This document shows, one piece after another, positions 13,135 to 34,853 of a stretch of 64,000 nt of DNA. The notes beneath the pieces were generated by a model, which saw only the letters and a program-made list of their open reading frames with translations, made no database searches and had not been told where the DNA came from. The stretch spans positions 62,001 to 126,000 of the forward strand of contig NZ_JAFCME010000009.1 of the NCBI RefSeq assembly GCF_018130065.1. Direction: 5' to 3'. Numbering within the stretch: the stretch's first letter is position 1; every line of letters starts with the position of its first letter. Source of the stretch: Bradyrhizobium sp. AUGA SZCCT0158 (lineage in GTDB: Bacteria; Pseudomonadota; Alphaproteobacteria; Rhizobiales; Xanthobacteraceae). The position numbers and the translations under genes were made by a program.

Positions 13135-13138
13135 AAGT

Positions 13139-13455
13139 GGAGGCTTCTGTTGCCAGGTGCCTCCGAACCCCGCCTAGCGGAGCTTAACCCACTAGGACTT
13201 TAGACTTGGTTTTTCAAACTGCGTTACGCAGCCTGAGCAACCGGAGCATAGTTGTCGTTTGCAACTATTGCATAGCCCGATAACGGCGGAACCATACCGA
13301 GAAAAAACACGCCCTTTACGCCCTCGTCGATCCTGTTTCGCCCCCGCCGAAACCCGCCTTCAAGGGGGTGGGCTTGGGTGGAGGCGCCGGGTACTGCCCC
13401 CGGGTCCGAATGGTTTATTGCGACGGCAATTTATTTCCATAGCCGGCGAACCGGC
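13139..13455 (-). ncRNA. ssrA: Permuted two-piece tmRNA (alpha-tmRNA)
   Basis: Read on the minus strand, the acceptor piece comes first (about 13455 to 13377). It starts with a GCCGGTTCGCCGGC hairpin and ends in CGCCTCC followed by ACC. After a spacer of about 31 bases, the coding piece starts at 13345 with GGGGGCGAAACAGG. GGGGGCG pairs with CGCCTCC into a 7-bp acceptor stem whose third pair is G-U, the alanine identity element. The tag frame (13262 down to 13224) is ANDNYAPVAQAA followed by TAA. A final hairpin occupies 13139-13164. A TATATT -10 element lies at 13467-13462; the -35 is weak. Exact ends are estimates. Confidence 0.93.
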
Positions 13456-13572
13456 ACCCCTAATATAGGGGGCAAAGGCTGAGAAAAATAGTGCCGGGAT
13501 AGGCGTGGAAAGCGCGGGAACCGGCCGAATTGGGATTGGCCCTGGCGGTGCCGCCGTTCTAGGTTTTGGACC

Positions 13573-30189: not shown

Positions 30190-31117
30190 GCAGGCGAATT
30201 CGCGTTTGGGGAATAAGGCCGTGCTTATCGCAGGGCCGACCGCCAGCGGCAAGTCGGCGCTGGCCCTTGAGCTGGCGCAAAAAACCGGCGGCGTCGTCAT
30301 CAACACCGATTCCATGCAGGTCTATCGCGATCTCCGTGTCATCACGGCCCGCCCGACGCCCGCCGAAGAGGCGCAGGCGCCGCATTGGCTCTATGGCCAT
30401 GTTGATGCCGCCGTGAATTTTTCCGCCGGCGCGTGGGTCGCGGACGCCGCCAAGATGCTGTCGGAAGCACAATCCGCAAAACGGCTGCCGATCTTCGTCG
30501 GCGGTTCCGGCCTCTATTTCAAGGCGCTGACGCGCGGCCTGTCGGCGGTGCCGCCAATCCCGGCCGAAGTGCGTGACAGCGTGCGCGCGCGGCTGGAGCG
30601 CGATGGCGTCGAGGCGCTGCACGCCGAACTGGCGCAGCGCGATCCGGTAACGGCGGAACGCCTGAAACCGCGCGACCGCGCCCGCGTCGCGCGGGCGCTC
30701 GAGGTGGTCGAGGCGACCGGCCGCGCGCTGACCGACTGGCACCGCGAAGGTCTGCCGCCGCTGCTGCCGCAAGGCGAATTTCACGCGCTATTTCTGGCGC
30801 CCGAGCGCGACCAGCTCTATGCCCGGATCGACGCGCGGTTCGATGCGATGCTGGCAGCAGGTGCATTGGAGGAGGTGGCCGCGCTCGCCGCCCGACACCT
30901 CGACCCGCTGCTGCCGGCGATGAAGGCCCATGGCGTGCCGGCGCTGATCCGGCATTTGAAGGGCGAGATCAGCCAAGCGGAGGCCGCCGAGACCGGCCGC
31001 GCCGACACCCGCCACTACGCCAAGCGGCAGTTCACCTGGTTCCGGCACCAATTGCCGGAATTTGAGTGGGTGGCGCCAGGGGCGGCGCGGGGGTGGGTGG
31101 ACCAGATCCCTGTCTAG
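30188..31117 (+). CDS. miaA: tRNA dimethylallyltransferase
   Basis: This 309-residue enzyme isopentenylates A37 of tRNAs reading UNN codons. The P-loop is GPTASGKS (16-23), followed by [11 protein letters not shown] and the DxxQ-type substrate region, with [16 protein letters not shown] in the middle and the C-terminal [12 protein letters not shown] block. The start at 30188 is chosen from homology. The only purine run (GAGGG) is just 2 bases upstream, so an in-frame alternative (ATG 30167, inside serB) cannot be excluded. Starts of miaA and serB overlap. Confidence 0.93.
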
Positions 31118-31119
31118 GC

Positions 31120-31184
31120 CGTCATGCCCGGGCTTGTCCCGGCCATCCACGTCTTTGCCGCAAGGAGGCAAGACCTGGATGACG
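31120..31184. repeat. REP-like palindromic repeat after miaA
   Basis: CGTCATGCCCGGGCTTG starts 2 bases after the miaA stop. CATCCACGTCTTTGCC is mirrored by GGCAAGACCTGGATG, giving a long imperfect hairpin. It probably serves as the miaA terminator. Confidence 0.7.
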
Positions 31185-31280
31185 AGGAGTGGTTTGCATG
31201 GCAGGGAACAGCAAATTCGCACTCGCCGAACAGCCGGAACCCCGTTACACTGCCTTAATCGGGCTGAATGCGTCCTTCCC

Positions 31281-31308
31281 TTGACTTCCAGGGTCCGGTC
31301 GCTATAAC
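31281..31308 (+). promoter_or_regulatory. Promoter of the ilv leader/ilvB operon
   Basis: TTGACT (31281-31286) and TATAAC (31303-31308) are separated by 16 bases, 32 bases upstream of the leader peptide ATG. This is a good sigma-70-type match. Confidence 0.65.
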
Positions 31309-31340
31309 CCGCGTAATCTTCGGGAAGTCTGGGCCGTCTG

Positions 31341-31406
31341 ATGCGTAATATTATTACCAAACTCCTTATCGTAGTCGTACCCTGGCGCACCGCCCGGGAT
31401 GGCTGA
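31341..31406 (+). CDS. Branched-chain amino acid leader peptide (attenuator)
   Basis: The 21-codon frame encodes MRNIITKLLIVVVPWR and five further residues, then TGA. Eight of the ten residues 4-13 are Ile, Leu or Val, far above chance, and the frame is followed by competing RNA hairpins and an intrinsic terminator before ilvB. Ribosome stalling at these codons when charged branched-chain tRNAs are scarce would favour read-through into ilvB. The peptide has no role other than control. The ribosome site is weak (GGGAAG, 13 bases away). Confidence 0.85.
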   Translation: MRNIITKLLIVVVPWRTARDG

Positions 31407-31431
31407 GGCCATCCAGTTGCAGGCGGTGTGC
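31385..31431 (+). promoter_or_regulatory. Leader RNA pause/antiterminator structures
   Basis: GCGCACCGCC (31385-31394) pairs with GGCGGTGTGC (31422-31431), enclosing an inner hairpin GGATGGC-TGAG-GCCATCC (31397-31414). Alternatively GAGGCC (31405-31410) can pair with GGCCTC (31436-31441), which would break the downstream terminator stem. This is the switch expected of translation-coupled attenuation. Confidence 0.6.
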
Positions 31432-31433
31432 AT

Positions 31434-31456
31434 AGGGCCTCTGGGGCCCTTTTTTA
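31434..31456 (+). terminator. Attenuator terminator before ilvB
   Basis: AGGGCC (31434-31439) pairs with GGCCCT (31445-31450) around TCTGG, followed by a run of six T. It ends 68 bases before the ilvB start. Confidence 0.85.
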
Positions 31457-31523
31457 TTTCCCAAATCCAAGCCGACGAAGCCGCGCAGACACTGCGCATC
31501 CGGAGCAAGCCAAGGAAAACGTC

Positions 31524-33299
31524 ATGACCGACAAGAGCCACGATCCGAACCAGATGACCGGTGCCGCGATGATCGTGCGCGCGCTCATCGATCATGGCGT
31601 CCAGCATTTGTTCGGCTATCCCGGCGGTGCGGTGCTTCCGATCTATGACGAGATCTTCCAGCAGAGCGAGGTCGAGCACATCCTGGTGCGGCACGAGCAG
31701 GGCGCCGGACACGCCGCCGAAGGCTATGCGCGCTCGACCGGCAAGCCGGGCGTCGTGCTGGTGACTTCCGGCCCCGGCGCCACCAATATGGTGACGCCGC
31801 TGACGGACGCGCTGATGGATTCGATTCCGCTGGTCTGCATCACCGGGCAGGTGCCGACGCATTTGATCGGCAATGATGCGTTCCAGGAATGCGACACCGT
31901 CGGGATCACGCGGCCCTGCACCAAGCACAATTGGCTGGTGCGCGACGTCAACGATCTCGCGAAAGTGCTGCACGAGGCGTTCTACGTCGCCACGACCGGC
32001 CGTCCCGGTCCCGTCGTGGTCGACGTGCCAAAGGACGTGCAGTTCGCGACCGGCACCTATCATCCGCCGCGCAAGTCCGACGTGCATGTTTCCTACACGC
32101 CGCGGGTCAAGGGTGATGCGACGCAGATCCGCAAGGCCGTGGCGCTGCTCGCCGGCGCAAGGCGCCCGGTGATCTATAGCGGCGGTGGCGTCATCAATTC
32201 CGGACGCGAAGCCTCGAAATTGCTGCGCGAACTGGTCGAAGTCACCGGCTTTCCGATCACGTCGACCCTGATGGGGCTCGGCGCCTATCCCGCGACCGGC
32301 AAGAATTGGCTCGGCATGCTCGGCATGCACGGTACCTATGAATCCAACATGGCGATGCATGATTGCGACGTCATGCTGTGCGTCGGCGCGCGCTTCGACG
32401 ACCGCATCACCGGCCGCACCGACGCGTTCTCGCCGGGCTCGAAGAAGATCCACATCGACATCGATCCGTCCTCGATCAACAAGAACATCCATGTCGACGT
32501 GCCGATCATCGGCGACTGCGGCAACGTGCTCGGCGACCTGTTGCAGGTGTTCAAGGCGGAAGCGAAAAAACCTGATATCAAGGCGTGGTGGCAGGAGATC
32601 GCCGTATGGCGGGCGCGCAATTCGCTCGCCTACCGGAAGAACAGCGAAGTCATCCTGCCGCAGTACGCCATCGAGCGGCTGTTCGAGGCGACGCGCGGGC
32701 ACGACACCTACATCACGACCGAAGTCGGTCAGCACCAGATGTGGGCGGCGCAGTTCTTCGGCTTCGAGGAGCCGCACCGCTGGATGACCTCGGGCGGCCT
32801 CGGCACCATGGGCTACGGGCTGCCGGCCGCGCTCGGCGTCCAGGTCGCGCATCCCGACAGCCTCGTGATCGATATCGCGGGCGATGCCTCGGTGCAGATG
32901 ACGATGCAGGAGATGTCGACGGCGGTACAGTTTGAACTGCCGATCAAGATCTTCATTCTGAACAACCAGTACATGGGCATGGTGAGGCAGTGGCAGCAGC
33001 TGCTGCACGGCAACCGGCTGTCGCATTCCTATTCGGAGGCGCTGCCGGATTTCGTCAAGCTCGCGGACGCGTTCGGCTGCGTCGGCCTGCAGGCGATCAA
33101 GCCCGGCGATCTCGACGGTGCGCTCAAGGAAATGATCTCAATCAAGCGCCCGGTGCTGTTCGATTGCCGCGTCGCGGCGCTGGAAAATTGCTTCCCGATG
33201 ATTCCGTCCGGCAAGGCGCACAATGAAATGCTGTTGCCGGCGGAAGCGACCGACGAAGCGACCGCGGCCGCCTTCGCCGGCGGCAAGGCGCTGGTGTGA
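31524..33299 (+). CDS. ilvB: Acetolactate synthase, large catalytic subunit
   Basis: This 591-residue thiamine-diphosphate enzyme makes acetolactate or acetohydroxybutyrate, the first common step to Val, Leu and Ile. The catalytic Glu region is VRHEQGAGHAAEGYARSTGK, the FAD-binding region includes GMHGTYESNMAM, and the ThDP motif is GDASVQM...NN. The start at 31524 has AAGGA 7 bases upstream; the frame is open from 31428 across the attenuator. The stop overlaps the GTG start of the next gene. Expression is expected to be governed by the leader peptide. Confidence 0.97.
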   Translation: MTDKSHDPNQMTGAAMIVRALIDHGVQHLFGYPGGAVLPIYDEIFQQSEVEHILVRHEQGAGHAAEGYARSTGKPGVVLVTSGPGATNMVTPLTDALMDSIPLVCITGQVPTHLIGNDAFQECDTVGITRPCTKHNWLVRDVNDLAKVLHEAFYVATTGRPGPVVVDVPKDVQFATGTYHPPRKSDVHVSYTPRVKGDATQIRKAVALLAGARRPVIYSGGGVINSGREASKLLRELVEVTGFPITSTLMGLGAYPATGKNWLGMLGMHGTYESNMAMHDCDVMLCVGARFDDRITGRTDAFSPGSKKIHIDIDPSSINKNIHVDVPIIGDCGNVLGDLLQVFKAEAKKPDIKAWWQEIAVWRARNSLAYRKNSEVILPQYAIERLFEATRGHDTYITTEVGQHQMWAAQFFGFEEPHRWMTSGGLGTMGYGLPAALGVQVAHPDSLVIDIAGDASVQMTMQEMSTAVQFELPIKIFILNNQYMGMVRQWQQLLHGNRLSHSYSEALPDFVKLADAFGCVGLQAIKPGDLDGALKEMISIKRPVLFDCRVAALENCFPMIPSGKAHNEMLLPAEATDEATAAAFAGGKALV

Positions 33300-34291
33300 C
33301 GGCGATGTTTGATCTGGGGCAACTCGAGCGCGCGCACAGGATCGTCGGGGCAGCGATGCCGCCGACGCCGGCGCATGCGTGGCCGCTGCTGGCGCAGCGG
33401 CTCGGGGCTGACGTGGTCGTCAAGCACGAGAACCACACCCCGATCGGCGCCTTCAAGGTGCGGGGCGGGCTGGTCTATGTCGAGCGGCTGCAACGCGAGC
33501 GGGCGCAGACGTCAGGAATTATCTCGGCGACCCGCGGCAATCACGGCCAGAGTCTCGCCTTCGCCGCGCGCCGTTTCGGCGTGCCGGCGACGATCTATGT
33601 GCCGCATGGCAATTCGCTCGAGAAAAACCAGTCGATGCGCGCTCTCGGCGCCAACCTCGTCGAGCATGGCGAGGATTTTCAGTCCGCCCGCGAAGAATGC
33701 GAGCGTCACGCCGAACGCGAGGGTCTCGAGCTGGTGCCGTCGTTCCACCGCGACCTCGTGATGGGCGTTGCCACCTACGCGCTGGAATTGCTGCGCGCCG
33801 CTGATGATATCGATGTCCTCTATGTGCCGATCGGGCAGGGCTCCGGCATCTGCGGCTGCATCCTGGCGCGTGATCTGCTCGGGCTGAAGACTGACATCGT
33901 CGGCGTGCAGTCGACGGAGGCGCCGTCCTATGCGCTGTCGTTCGCTGCCGGCACCGTGGTGAAGACCAACAGCAGCAACACGCTGGCTGACGGCATGGCG
34001 ACCCGCGTCCCCGACGCCGAGGCGCTGGCGATCATTCGCGACGGCGCCTCGCACATCGTGCAGGTGACCGACGACGAAATCGCCGATGCGGTGCGGGCCT
34101 ACTGGACCGATACCCACAATCTCGCCGAGGGCGCCGGCGCTGCCGCGCTTGCTGCAGCCCTGCAGGAGAAACCGAAGCTCCGCGGCAAGCGGGTCGGGCT
34201 GATCCTGTCCGGCGGCAATATCGATTTCGATCTGTTCTGGAAATGGGTCGCCCGCAACGAAAATGTCACCGCCGCCAAGGCACTGGCGTAG
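33296..34291 (+). CDS. Threonine dehydratase-like PLP enzyme, embedded between ilvB and ilvN
   Basis: This protein of about 331 residues has fold type II PLP motifs: the Schiff-base Lys K54 in GAFKVRGG, the RGNHGQSLAFAA loop and the C-terminal LSGGN. It lacks the C-terminal regulatory (ACT-like) domain of biosynthetic IlvA, so it resembles catabolic threonine/serine dehydratases. Supply of 2-ketobutyrate to IlvBN for isoleucine is the natural reading of its position. The GTG at 33296 overlaps the ilvB stop; ATG 33305 is the alternative start. Family members include hydroxyaspartate dehydratases and racemases, so the exact reaction is unproven. Confidence 0.82.
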   Translation: MTAMFDLGQLERAHRIVGAAMPPTPAHAWPLLAQRLGADVVVKHENHTPIGAFKVRGGLVYVERLQRERAQTSGIISATRGNHGQSLAFAARRFGVPATIYVPHGNSLEKNQSMRALGANLVEHGEDFQSAREECERHAEREGLELVPSFHRDLVMGVATYALELLRAADDIDVLYVPIGQGSGICGCILARDLLGLKTDIVGVQSTEAPSYALSFAAGTVVKTNSSNTLADGMATRVPDAEALAIIRDGASHIVQVTDDEIADAVRAYWTDTHNLAEGAGAAALAAALQEKPKLRGKRVGLILSGGNIDFDLFWKWVARNENVTAAKALA

Positions 34292-34310: not shown

Positions 34311-34853
34311 ATGAACCAGCCCGCATCCGCCTACTTCCTCGAAGAGCGCCACGATCCGACCGAGTCGCACACGCTCTCGGTGCTCGTGCAGAACGAGCCG
34401 GGCGTGCTCGCGCGCGTGATCGGGCTGTTCTCCGGCCGCGGCTACAACATCGAAAGCCTCACCGTCTCCGAGACCGAGAGCCAGAAACATCTCTCCCGCA
34501 TCACCATTGTCACGACGGGCACGCCGATGGTGATCGAGCAGATCAAGCACCAGCTCGACCGCATGGTTCCGGTCTATCGCGTCGTCGACATGACGCTGAC
34601 CGGCCGCTCGATCGAGCGCGAGCTCGCCATGGTCAAGGTGCGCGGCGGCGGCGACAACCGCGTCGAGGCGCTGCGGCTGGCTGACGCGTTCCGCGCCCGC
34701 GTGATCGACGCGACCACCGAAAGCTTCGTGTTCGAGATCACCGGCAATTCCGCCAAGGTCAGTCAATTCATCGACCTGATGCGACCGATCGGCCTTGTCG
34801 AAGTGTCGCGCACCGGCGTTGCCGCGATCGGACGCGGGCCTGAGGGGATGTGA
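34311..34853 (+). CDS. ilvN: Acetolactate synthase, small regulatory subunit
   Basis: This 180-residue protein has an N-terminal ACT domain (LSVLVQNEPGVLARVIGLFSG, about 24-44) and the C-terminal small-subunit domain (ERELAMVKV). It activates IlvB and confers valine feedback. It begins 19 bases after the dehydratase-like gene and ends 3 bases before the methyltransferase start, so it is inside a tight operon. Confidence 0.96.
   Translation: MNQPASAYFLEERHDPTESHTLSVLVQNEPGVLARVIGLFSGRGYNIESLTVSETESQKHLSRITIVTTGTPMVIEQIKHQLDRMVPVYRVVDMTLTGRSIERELAMVKVRGGGDNRVEALRLADAFRARVIDATTESFVFEITGNSAKVSQFIDLMRPIGLVEVSRTGVAAIGRGPEGM

Follow-up and report, generated by a model that had tools for sequence, protein, structure and literature searches.

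Does the DNA between miaA and ilvB in Bradyrhizobium sp. AUGA SZCCT0158 hold an attenuator that adjusts acetolactate synthase to the supply of isoleucine, leucine and valine, and how would such an element work? We addressed this question in a window of 64,000 nucleotides (the whole stretch of DNA that was analysed, to which all positions refer) and by comparison with related genomes. On the plus strand, the miaA frame (NCBIfam TIGR00174) ends at 31117 and is followed, before ilvB, by a gap of 406 bases that holds a promoter, a frame of 21 codons, a long hairpin and an intrinsic terminator. All four were found where a sequence-only reading of this DNA had placed them, and they are conserved in relatives.

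Organization of the ilvB leader

The promoter (31281-31308, plus strand), read from the sequence, is composed of a -35 element TTGACT (31281-31286), a spacer of 16 nt and a -10 element TATAAC (31303-31308). A strict sigma-70 scan of 30900-31800 called no promoter; it requires T at the last -10 position and therefore misses the one at 31281. The same scan found none between the terminator and ilvB, which is weak evidence, as the promoter at 31281 was missed likewise. Transcription is predicted to start about 7 nt past the -10 element, giving a short 5' untranslated stretch (31315-31340, plus strand) with the block AATCTTCGGGAAG, and the leader peptide ilvL follows at 31341-31406 on the same strand (ATG at 31341, stop codon TGA at 31404-31406). 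It has 21 codons, reads MRNIITKLLIVVVPWRTARDG and has homologous leaders in relatives. Translation bears out the first observation made on it, that 8 of its residues 4-13 are Ile, Leu or Val: the regulatory run ATT ATT ACC AAA CTC CTT ATC GTA GTC GTA (31350-31379, plus strand) holds 8 such codons in 10. Uncommon codons are used in part of this run, GTA being two of the three Val codons (3% in six genes of the window) and ATT two of the three Ile codons (8%). Over the 146 leaders described below, GTG is the most frequent Val codon (176), followed by GTA (148), so that the use of rare codons is not uniform.

The outer stem begins 5 nt past the end of the last Val codon. Its 5' arm GCGCACCGCC (31385-31394) and 3' arm GGCGGTGTGC (31422-31431), both on the plus strand, are supported by the fold, by compensatory change and by the swap test presented below. 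They enclose an inner hairpin, GGATGGC-TGAG-GCCATCC (31397-31414, plus strand), which carries the leader stop codon TGA in its loop and whose arms covary in the swap test; the long stem as a whole spans 31385-31431. The terminator with six T that had been noticed before ilvB was recovered both in the sequence and by a scan (AGGGCCT-CTG-GGGCCCT plus six T, 31434-31455, plus strand), and its arms are conserved as pairs. Taken by itself, the fold energy of 31313-31456 is unremarkable (z -1.13; 31 of 200 shuffles fold equally well), and it is through conservation, not through fold energy alone, that the feature rises above chance.

The proposed regulated gene is ilvB, encoding the large subunit of acetolactate synthase (31524-33299, plus strand; NCBIfam NF006581, 1189.7 bits, and Pfam). 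The small-subunit gene ilvN/ilvH lies further downstream (34311-34853, plus strand; NF008864, 230.1 bits). Between the two is a threonine dehydratase-like gene (33296-34291, plus strand; NF004771, 543.5 bits), with a GTG start and a 4-base overlap with the end of ilvB.

Conservation of the leader before ilvB

We compared the window with 80 named ilvB loci (the best 80 of at least 591), which makes a set of 81. The nearest named relative by IlvB among the matches listed is Bradyrhizobium retamae (96% identity). A script that looked for an I/L/V-rich frame 15-75 nt upstream of a hairpin-plus-T terminator found a leader and terminator in 70 of the 81 loci, or 69 after removal of one chance frame (L080). 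The leader is also present by eye in L063, L074 and L078, and the sequence of L066 stops too early to judge. Relatives that keep ilvB without the leader, which the sequence-only reading had named as evidence against itself, do exist: by eye no leader was seen in 7 of the 81 loci (L069, L070, L075, L076, L077, L079 and L080), all of them distant (70-74% IlvB identity). One further locus, L029, has a decayed copy before ilvB (at about 1539-1589) in which the frame survives but both the 3' arm of the outer stem and the 5' arm of the terminator have been lost. The genome G023 has the leader before two ilvB homologs (L082, L112), the second of which is 63% identical to the IlvB of the window.

Within the genus, a 190-base query gave a DNA match in all 80 genomes (E 0.01 or better). 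A set of 83 leaders was assembled from 70 of these 80 genomes together with L002-L013 and L158 (duplicates kept; 65 distinct). Leaders of this genus and nearest-relative set mostly read MRNIIT.LLI.VVP, and at least 76 of the 83 have TTGAC[A/T]-16-TAT located 30-32 nt upstream of the leader start. The 5' block at 31315-31327, mostly AACCTTTGGGAAG in relatives, is nearly invariant in the 83 leaders and complementary to 31456-31466.

A wider set of 146 leaders was obtained after one locus with unequal flanks (L109) had been removed from 78 fetched loci; removal of duplicates and stemless rows left 142 leaders for geometry and 141 for the swap test. With one and the same frame chooser, 143 of the 146 leaders show at least four I/L/V in 7 codons; the figure is 12.9% for shuffled copies, and 3 of the 146 reverse strands qualify. 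As these controls stay low, the I/L/V run is no artefact of the choice of frame. The stricter count of at least four in 6 codons holds for 139 of the 142 distinct leaders.

A promoter score of 9 or more was reached by 83 of the 146 leaders. The distance from the end of the -10 element to the leader start is 6-10 nt in 46 of them, 27-38 nt in 36, the group into which the window leader falls, and 15 nt in one. The spacing of 6-10 nt predicts a leaderless leader frame in Rhizobiaceae and others. In L016, L024, L054 and other Rhizobiaceae-type loci, about 8 nt separate the end of the -10 element from the leader ATG, and the predicted leaderless ORF resembles S. meliloti trpL as the consulted parts of the literature describe it.

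Stems, stop codon and codon geometry

Which parts of the leader RNA are under selection was examined in an alignment (A1) of 39 of the 146 leaders. In the outer stem, 98.0% of the cells are standard pairs, 63 cells are double-changed and the covariation score is 0.529, each value being matched by none of 500 shuffles; both sides have changed in 6 of 9 pairs, a count that 84 of the 500 shuffles reach too. The terminator is paired in 94.5% of cells (0 of 500 shuffles), in a region where the alignment is imperfect, and its three double-changed pairs are no excess over shuffles.

We also used an alignment-free swap test, in which the pairing of a leader's own arm is compared with that of other leaders' arms (141 leaders, 21 segment pairs); it ignores relatedness, and its z values are comparative. 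Only three pairs of segments stand out strongly, namely the outer stem (z -23.9), the inner hairpin (z -24.1) and the terminator (z -16.0). The pair 'pre1 x upj' (z -5.1) is interpreted as a lengthening of the outer stem, and a weak signal (z -2.5 each) is given by seg2 x t3 and by in5 x post. Pairing of the 5' block, CTTTGGGAA, with TTTCCC[A/G]AA past the T-run in the genus was considered and discarded: complementarity is strong (-10.4 kcal/mol vs -7.2 kcal/mol in shuffles), but there is no covariation (swap z -0.2) and the partner lies beyond the termination point.

The position of the stems relative to the codons is conserved as well. The last I/L/V codon ends 4-5 nt ahead of the outer stem in 111 of the 142 distinct leaders. 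In 131 of 146 leaders, the stop codon overlaps or adjoins a hairpin loop of the predicted fold, for which the expectation at a random position is 0.22. With the front edge of the ribosome taken 16 nt past the P-site base, a ribosome on the last Val codon would cover part of the outer-stem 5' arm, and one at the stop codon would sit within the inner hairpin. The check proposed with the sequence-only reading, conservation of the Ile/Leu/Val codons and of two alternative stems by compensatory change, had a divided outcome: the codons and the outer stem are conserved, whereas the antiterminator stem is not.

A model for attenuation and its weak point

Taken together, these comparisons lead us to regard the element before ilvB as a cis-acting, ribosome-mediated transcription attenuator, a reading to which we assign a probability of roughly 0.86, and one that very probably would let the cell raise acetolactate synthase upon shortage of isoleucine, leucine or valine. 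We infer transcription, translation, termination, stalling and readthrough of the leader from sequence comparison. RNA polymerase would start just upstream of the short leader frame. When Ile-, Leu- and Val-tRNA are ample, the ribosome would translate as far as the stop codon, which the inner hairpin carries in its loop, and then depart; the long hairpin could then re-form and the polymerase would halt at the terminator, leaving a leader RNA of about 140 nt. When Ile-, Leu- or Val-tRNA is uncharged, the ribosome would stall on the codon run, the last Val codon of which is 4-5 nt from the outer stem. Its front edge would cover the 5' arm, the outer stem would stay open and the polymerase would read into ilvB.

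Several defining properties of an attenuator were found: a short I/L/V-rich frame (by predicted translation), an intrinsic terminator between the leader and the first gene (by predicted termination) and a stem that overlaps leader codons and could be opened by a stalled ribosome (by compensatory change and the 4-5 nt spacing). A conserved antiterminator exclusive with the terminator was found neither among 13 combinations of segments nor in the helix proposed earlier. Since no antiterminator pairing is conserved, we do not claim membership of the classical three-stem class, only an attenuator-like working. The original claim of ribosome-mediated attenuation therefore stands as regards the codon run, the stem and its spacing, the position of the stop codon and the terminator, all of which are conserved, and is not supported as regards its antiterminator.

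The search for a switch covered both conservation and predicted folding. In the swap test, none of the 13 pairings tried between an upstream segment and a terminator arm stands out (z -2.5 to +4.6), and upstream pairing with the terminator 5' arm is somewhat avoided (z +4.6). Neither the upstream sequence (best duplex per leader, mean z +0.79) nor segment 2 (mean z +0.94) is more complementary to the terminator 5' arm than shuffled sequence is. Duplex, segment-2 and swap tests alike give no sign of selection for pairing of this arm with upstream sequence.

At equilibrium, folding favours the terminator wherever, with few exceptions, the ribosome is placed: its mean probability of formation over 69 leaders is 0.92 at the lowest regulatory stall, 0.95 with a ribosome at the stop codon and 0.88 without a ribosome; without a ribosome it is 0.07 in the window and 0.01 in L002. 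Before the terminator 3' arm has been made, the probability that the 5' arm is paired upstream is 0.50 for a stall at the last regulatory codon and 0.23 for one two codons upstream; it is 0.46 when there is no ribosome and 0.50 when one sits at the stop codon. The rise from 0.23 to 0.50 as the stall opens the stem ends at the stop-codon value, and scans of ribosome position showed no clear switch in terminator probability or in nascent 5'-arm pairing.

The link from an open outer stem to readthrough is thus the weak point of the proposed mechanism, and conservation does not support it. Three explanations would fit: a competing structure that varies between lineages (CCC/GGG in the genus being one candidate), a kinetic competitor, or a stem with a further role in the terminated RNA.

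In another reading, the cis attenuator would at the same time be a trans-acting RNA (or peptide), as in S. meliloti rnTrpL/peTrpL. The terminated leader is predicted to be a compact, strongly paired RNA, the stems are conserved without a conserved antiterminator, the Rfam family that it matches is filed as an sRNA, and the consulted part of PMC10117765 provides a precedent in the same order. The peptide, on the other hand, varies apart from the codon run and the part that encodes the stem. We regard such a double role as unlikely, though worth keeping in view.

A lineage-specific antiterminator formed by extension of the outer stem appears improbable. It would pair the CCC of Pro codon 14 (31380-31382) with the GGG of the terminator 5' arm (31435-31437), a pairing that belongs to the minimum free energy fold of the window. 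Leaving out L228, which was misread (T-run in the terminator loop), 82 of the 83 leaders could be counted: CCC is present in 79, and the pair beside it is A/T in 61 leaders and T/A in three (the window, L161 and L185). However, this flanking pair is broken in the remaining leaders (e.g. A/A in 8 and A/C in 3), no such pairing was seen outside the group, and the exchange from A/T to T/A may be one event. Judging from the positions, moreover, with the ribosome stalled on Val 11-13, the CCC would be covered and the terminator favoured, which is the wrong sign.

The helix of the sequence-only reading, 31405-31410 with 31436-31441, would make the element a classical three-state attenuator, and we consider this very improbable. 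The complement GAGGCC/GGCCTC is perfect over 6 bp in the window, with a duplex of -13.0 kcal/mol vs -11.1 kcal/mol for the terminator. However, its cells are paired no more often than in shuffles (54.9% and 55.0%, on an alignment of uncertain quality in the loop), the 6-base complement is exact in 13 leaders of the 83-leader set, and the swap test gives z -1.5.

The leader belongs to the Rfam family Atu_C8

At gathering thresholds, the only Rfam match in the whole window is an alphaproteobacterial (permuted) tmRNA (13136-13494, minus strand), a side observation. With relaxed thresholds, the leader matches RF02502, Atu_C8, at 31349-31465 on the plus strand (34.5 bits, E 2.3e-5, under the gathering score of 50). 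This match stands out from three other relaxed-threshold matches (E 3 to 6), which look like chance. Below the cut-off as it is, homology is supported by shared position, stems and leader frame.

Of 150 genomes of the order, 77 contain a match to the RNA model, at 79 places scoring 30-120 bits (22 genomes above the cut-off); none of 14 controls does. The 77 genomes are a lower bound, as two genus genomes without a match to the RNA model (G035, G112) do have the DNA match. Among the 78 places fetched, the 79th being the window itself, 77 are followed on the same strand by an ilvB/ilvI homolog, after a gap of 1-142 nt (median 49). Conversely, a cmscan of 20 named ilvB loci brought 15 to the gathering score (73-124 bits), each on the leader, including 121 bits in Agrobacterium (L054). 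As the places precede ilvB/ilvI and the cmscan matches fall on the leader, the Atu_C8 family corresponds to the ilv leader. From this sequence evidence, Atu_C8, although filed as an sRNA gene, is the acetolactate synthase leader in those Hyphomicrobiales genomes that were examined, an identification new here.

The RF02502 entry files the family as a Rhizobiales sRNA gene, and its description line names neither ilvB nor a leader peptide. A statement equating Atu_C8 with an ilv leader was not found in the literature searched, and may exist in print. According to the consulted part of a later survey (PMC3738593), thirty-two sRNAs of Wilms 2012 look like parts of long 5' UTRs.

That Atu_C8 is a stand-alone, trans-acting sRNA gene placed by chance upstream of ilvB, with the terminator as the end of the sRNA, is scarcely credible: it has for it the type 'Gene; sRNA' of RF02502, stems clearly under selection where no antiterminator is, and S. 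meliloti rnTrpL as a precedent for trans action by an attenuator RNA (consulted part of PMC10117765), but the matches are not independent of context, as the 77 of 78 places directly before ilvB/ilvI show, the 121-bit Agrobacterium match ends 53 nt upstream of ilvB, and all 77 leaders (L109 excluded) have at least three I/L/V in 7 codons, in a frame picked for I/L/V, with the stop codon inside the match.

At class level, RF02502 was found in 4 of 190 genomes, including the genome of the window and one of the same order; the two outside the order are G332, where the match precedes a transporter gene, and G317. The G317 match (L193/L194) was rejected as a chance palindrome. In the order of G332, 7 of 36 genomes have a match, and none of those at L190 and L254-L259 lies before ilvB.

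A sister branch before a Bcr/CflA-type transporter

Two RF02502 matches, L086 from the order search and L190, the best match at class level, precede a gene for a Bcr/CflA-type MFS transporter. Their transporters score 217.1 and 212.8 bits with TIGR00710 (cut-off 200.9) and are 65% identical to each other. In further TIGR00710 scans, L235 (208.6 bits) and L261 (221.9 bits) pass and L265 (193.6 bits) is slightly under the cut-off. Loci of this transporter branch number 13 in the family of G127 and 5 in the order of G332, in addition to L086 and L190; six other fetched RF02502 matches in the family of G127 precede ilvB.

Starting from the transporter, 6 of the 8 best matches in the order carry a sister leader (L260, L261, L264-L267). 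Sister leaders occur in 26 of the 28 loci examined; 20 of the 26 were found through the RNA model, so that 6 of 8 is the fairer rate. None was seen by eye in the 22 weaker transporter matches (L268-L289) of the 30 listed. The loci with a sister leader are L086, L190, L235-L242, L244-L246, L248, L252, L254-L258, L260, L261 and L264-L267, from several families of Alphaproteobacteria.

The sister leaders have the same hairpin and terminator, and their peptides end in ...VVVGRRMGTAA or ...AVVVRDWRMGR. With a frame picked for Val content, at least three Val in 5 codons were found in 21 of 27 rows, and Val makes up 89 of 119 I/L/V residues. The outer stem is kept (swap z -8.2; 27 rows, one chance row included). 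For some rows, the innermost start codon was taken; the frame of L263 is a chance frame, L262 has no frame and the stem of L266 is misplaced.

The plain reading of these sequences is that the transporter branch would sense a shortage of valine. Alternatively, the ribosome may be stalled by an inhibitor; ribosome-stalling control of efflux genes has precedents in the consulted parts of the literature. It is tempting to suggest, tentatively and with the odds rather against it, that Atu_C8 as a whole is not a set of stand-alone sRNAs, and could be a family of attenuators with two branches. The ilvB/ilvI branch would combine Ile/Leu/Val codons with a protector hairpin whose loop holds the stop codon, would have no fixed antiterminator, and would leave behind a stable leader RNA with a possible action in trans. 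The Bcr/CflA branch would mostly carry Val-Val-Val, and its transporter would be tied to the supply of valine or branched-chain amino acids, or be a pump induced by ribosome stalling.

Implications

What is new here is the re-filing of Atu_C8 as an ilv leader and the transporter branch; the lack of a conserved antiterminator is worth retaining beside them. For the Hyphomicrobiales genomes covered, the re-filing settles an annotation: reads that RNA-seq assigns to the 'sRNA' would measure termination within the ilv leader. The leader ORF is also a small gene that frame lists overlook. The element raises the question of how attenuation works with a strongly conserved protector stem and no conserved antiterminator, and the sister branch offers a functional lead, valine-linked control, for the Bcr/CflA-type transporter.

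Comparison with known attenuators

In the trp and ilv attenuators of E. coli, codons for the end product in the leader are combined with a pause stem and a terminator. These three elements are common to both systems. In contrast to E. coli, no conserved 2:3 antiterminator was detected here, and the stop codon occupies an inner-hairpin loop.

Closer to the window in taxonomy are the systems of S. meliloti. The consulted parts of PMC10117765 and PMC7298713 describe rnTrpL/peTrpL as an attenuator-derived RNA with a leaderless leader ORF, a feature that many relatives are predicted to share; it differs in that it concerns tryptophan and that a trans function has been described for rnTrpL (PMC10117765). 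A cis-regulatory element of S. meliloti ilvIH is listed in Table 3 of PMC2573895, citing Vitreschak 2004. It shares with the element of the window the order Hyphomicrobiales and a place upstream of an acetolactate synthase gene, and is likened to it by position. Sinorhizobium saheli (L042) has the leader at 119 bits with RF02502.

For Caulobacter crescentus, attenuation of ilvBN was reported by Tarleton, Malakooti and Ely 1994, as cited in PMC4117421. According to the consulted part of that source, the Caulobacter leader, likened by description, also belongs to an alphaproteobacterium and to the same operon, with tandem Ile and Val codons and a terminator before ilvBN. The remark of the sequence-only reading that leader-peptide control of this operon is less often annotated in alphaproteobacteria does not make the element unusual there, in view of the Caulobacter ilvBN and S. 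meliloti ilvIH precedents and of an RNA model that matches at least 77 of the 150 genomes searched in the order. This kind of attenuator is already known in Alphaproteobacteria, and the element before ilvB in Bradyrhizobium is a further case of it.
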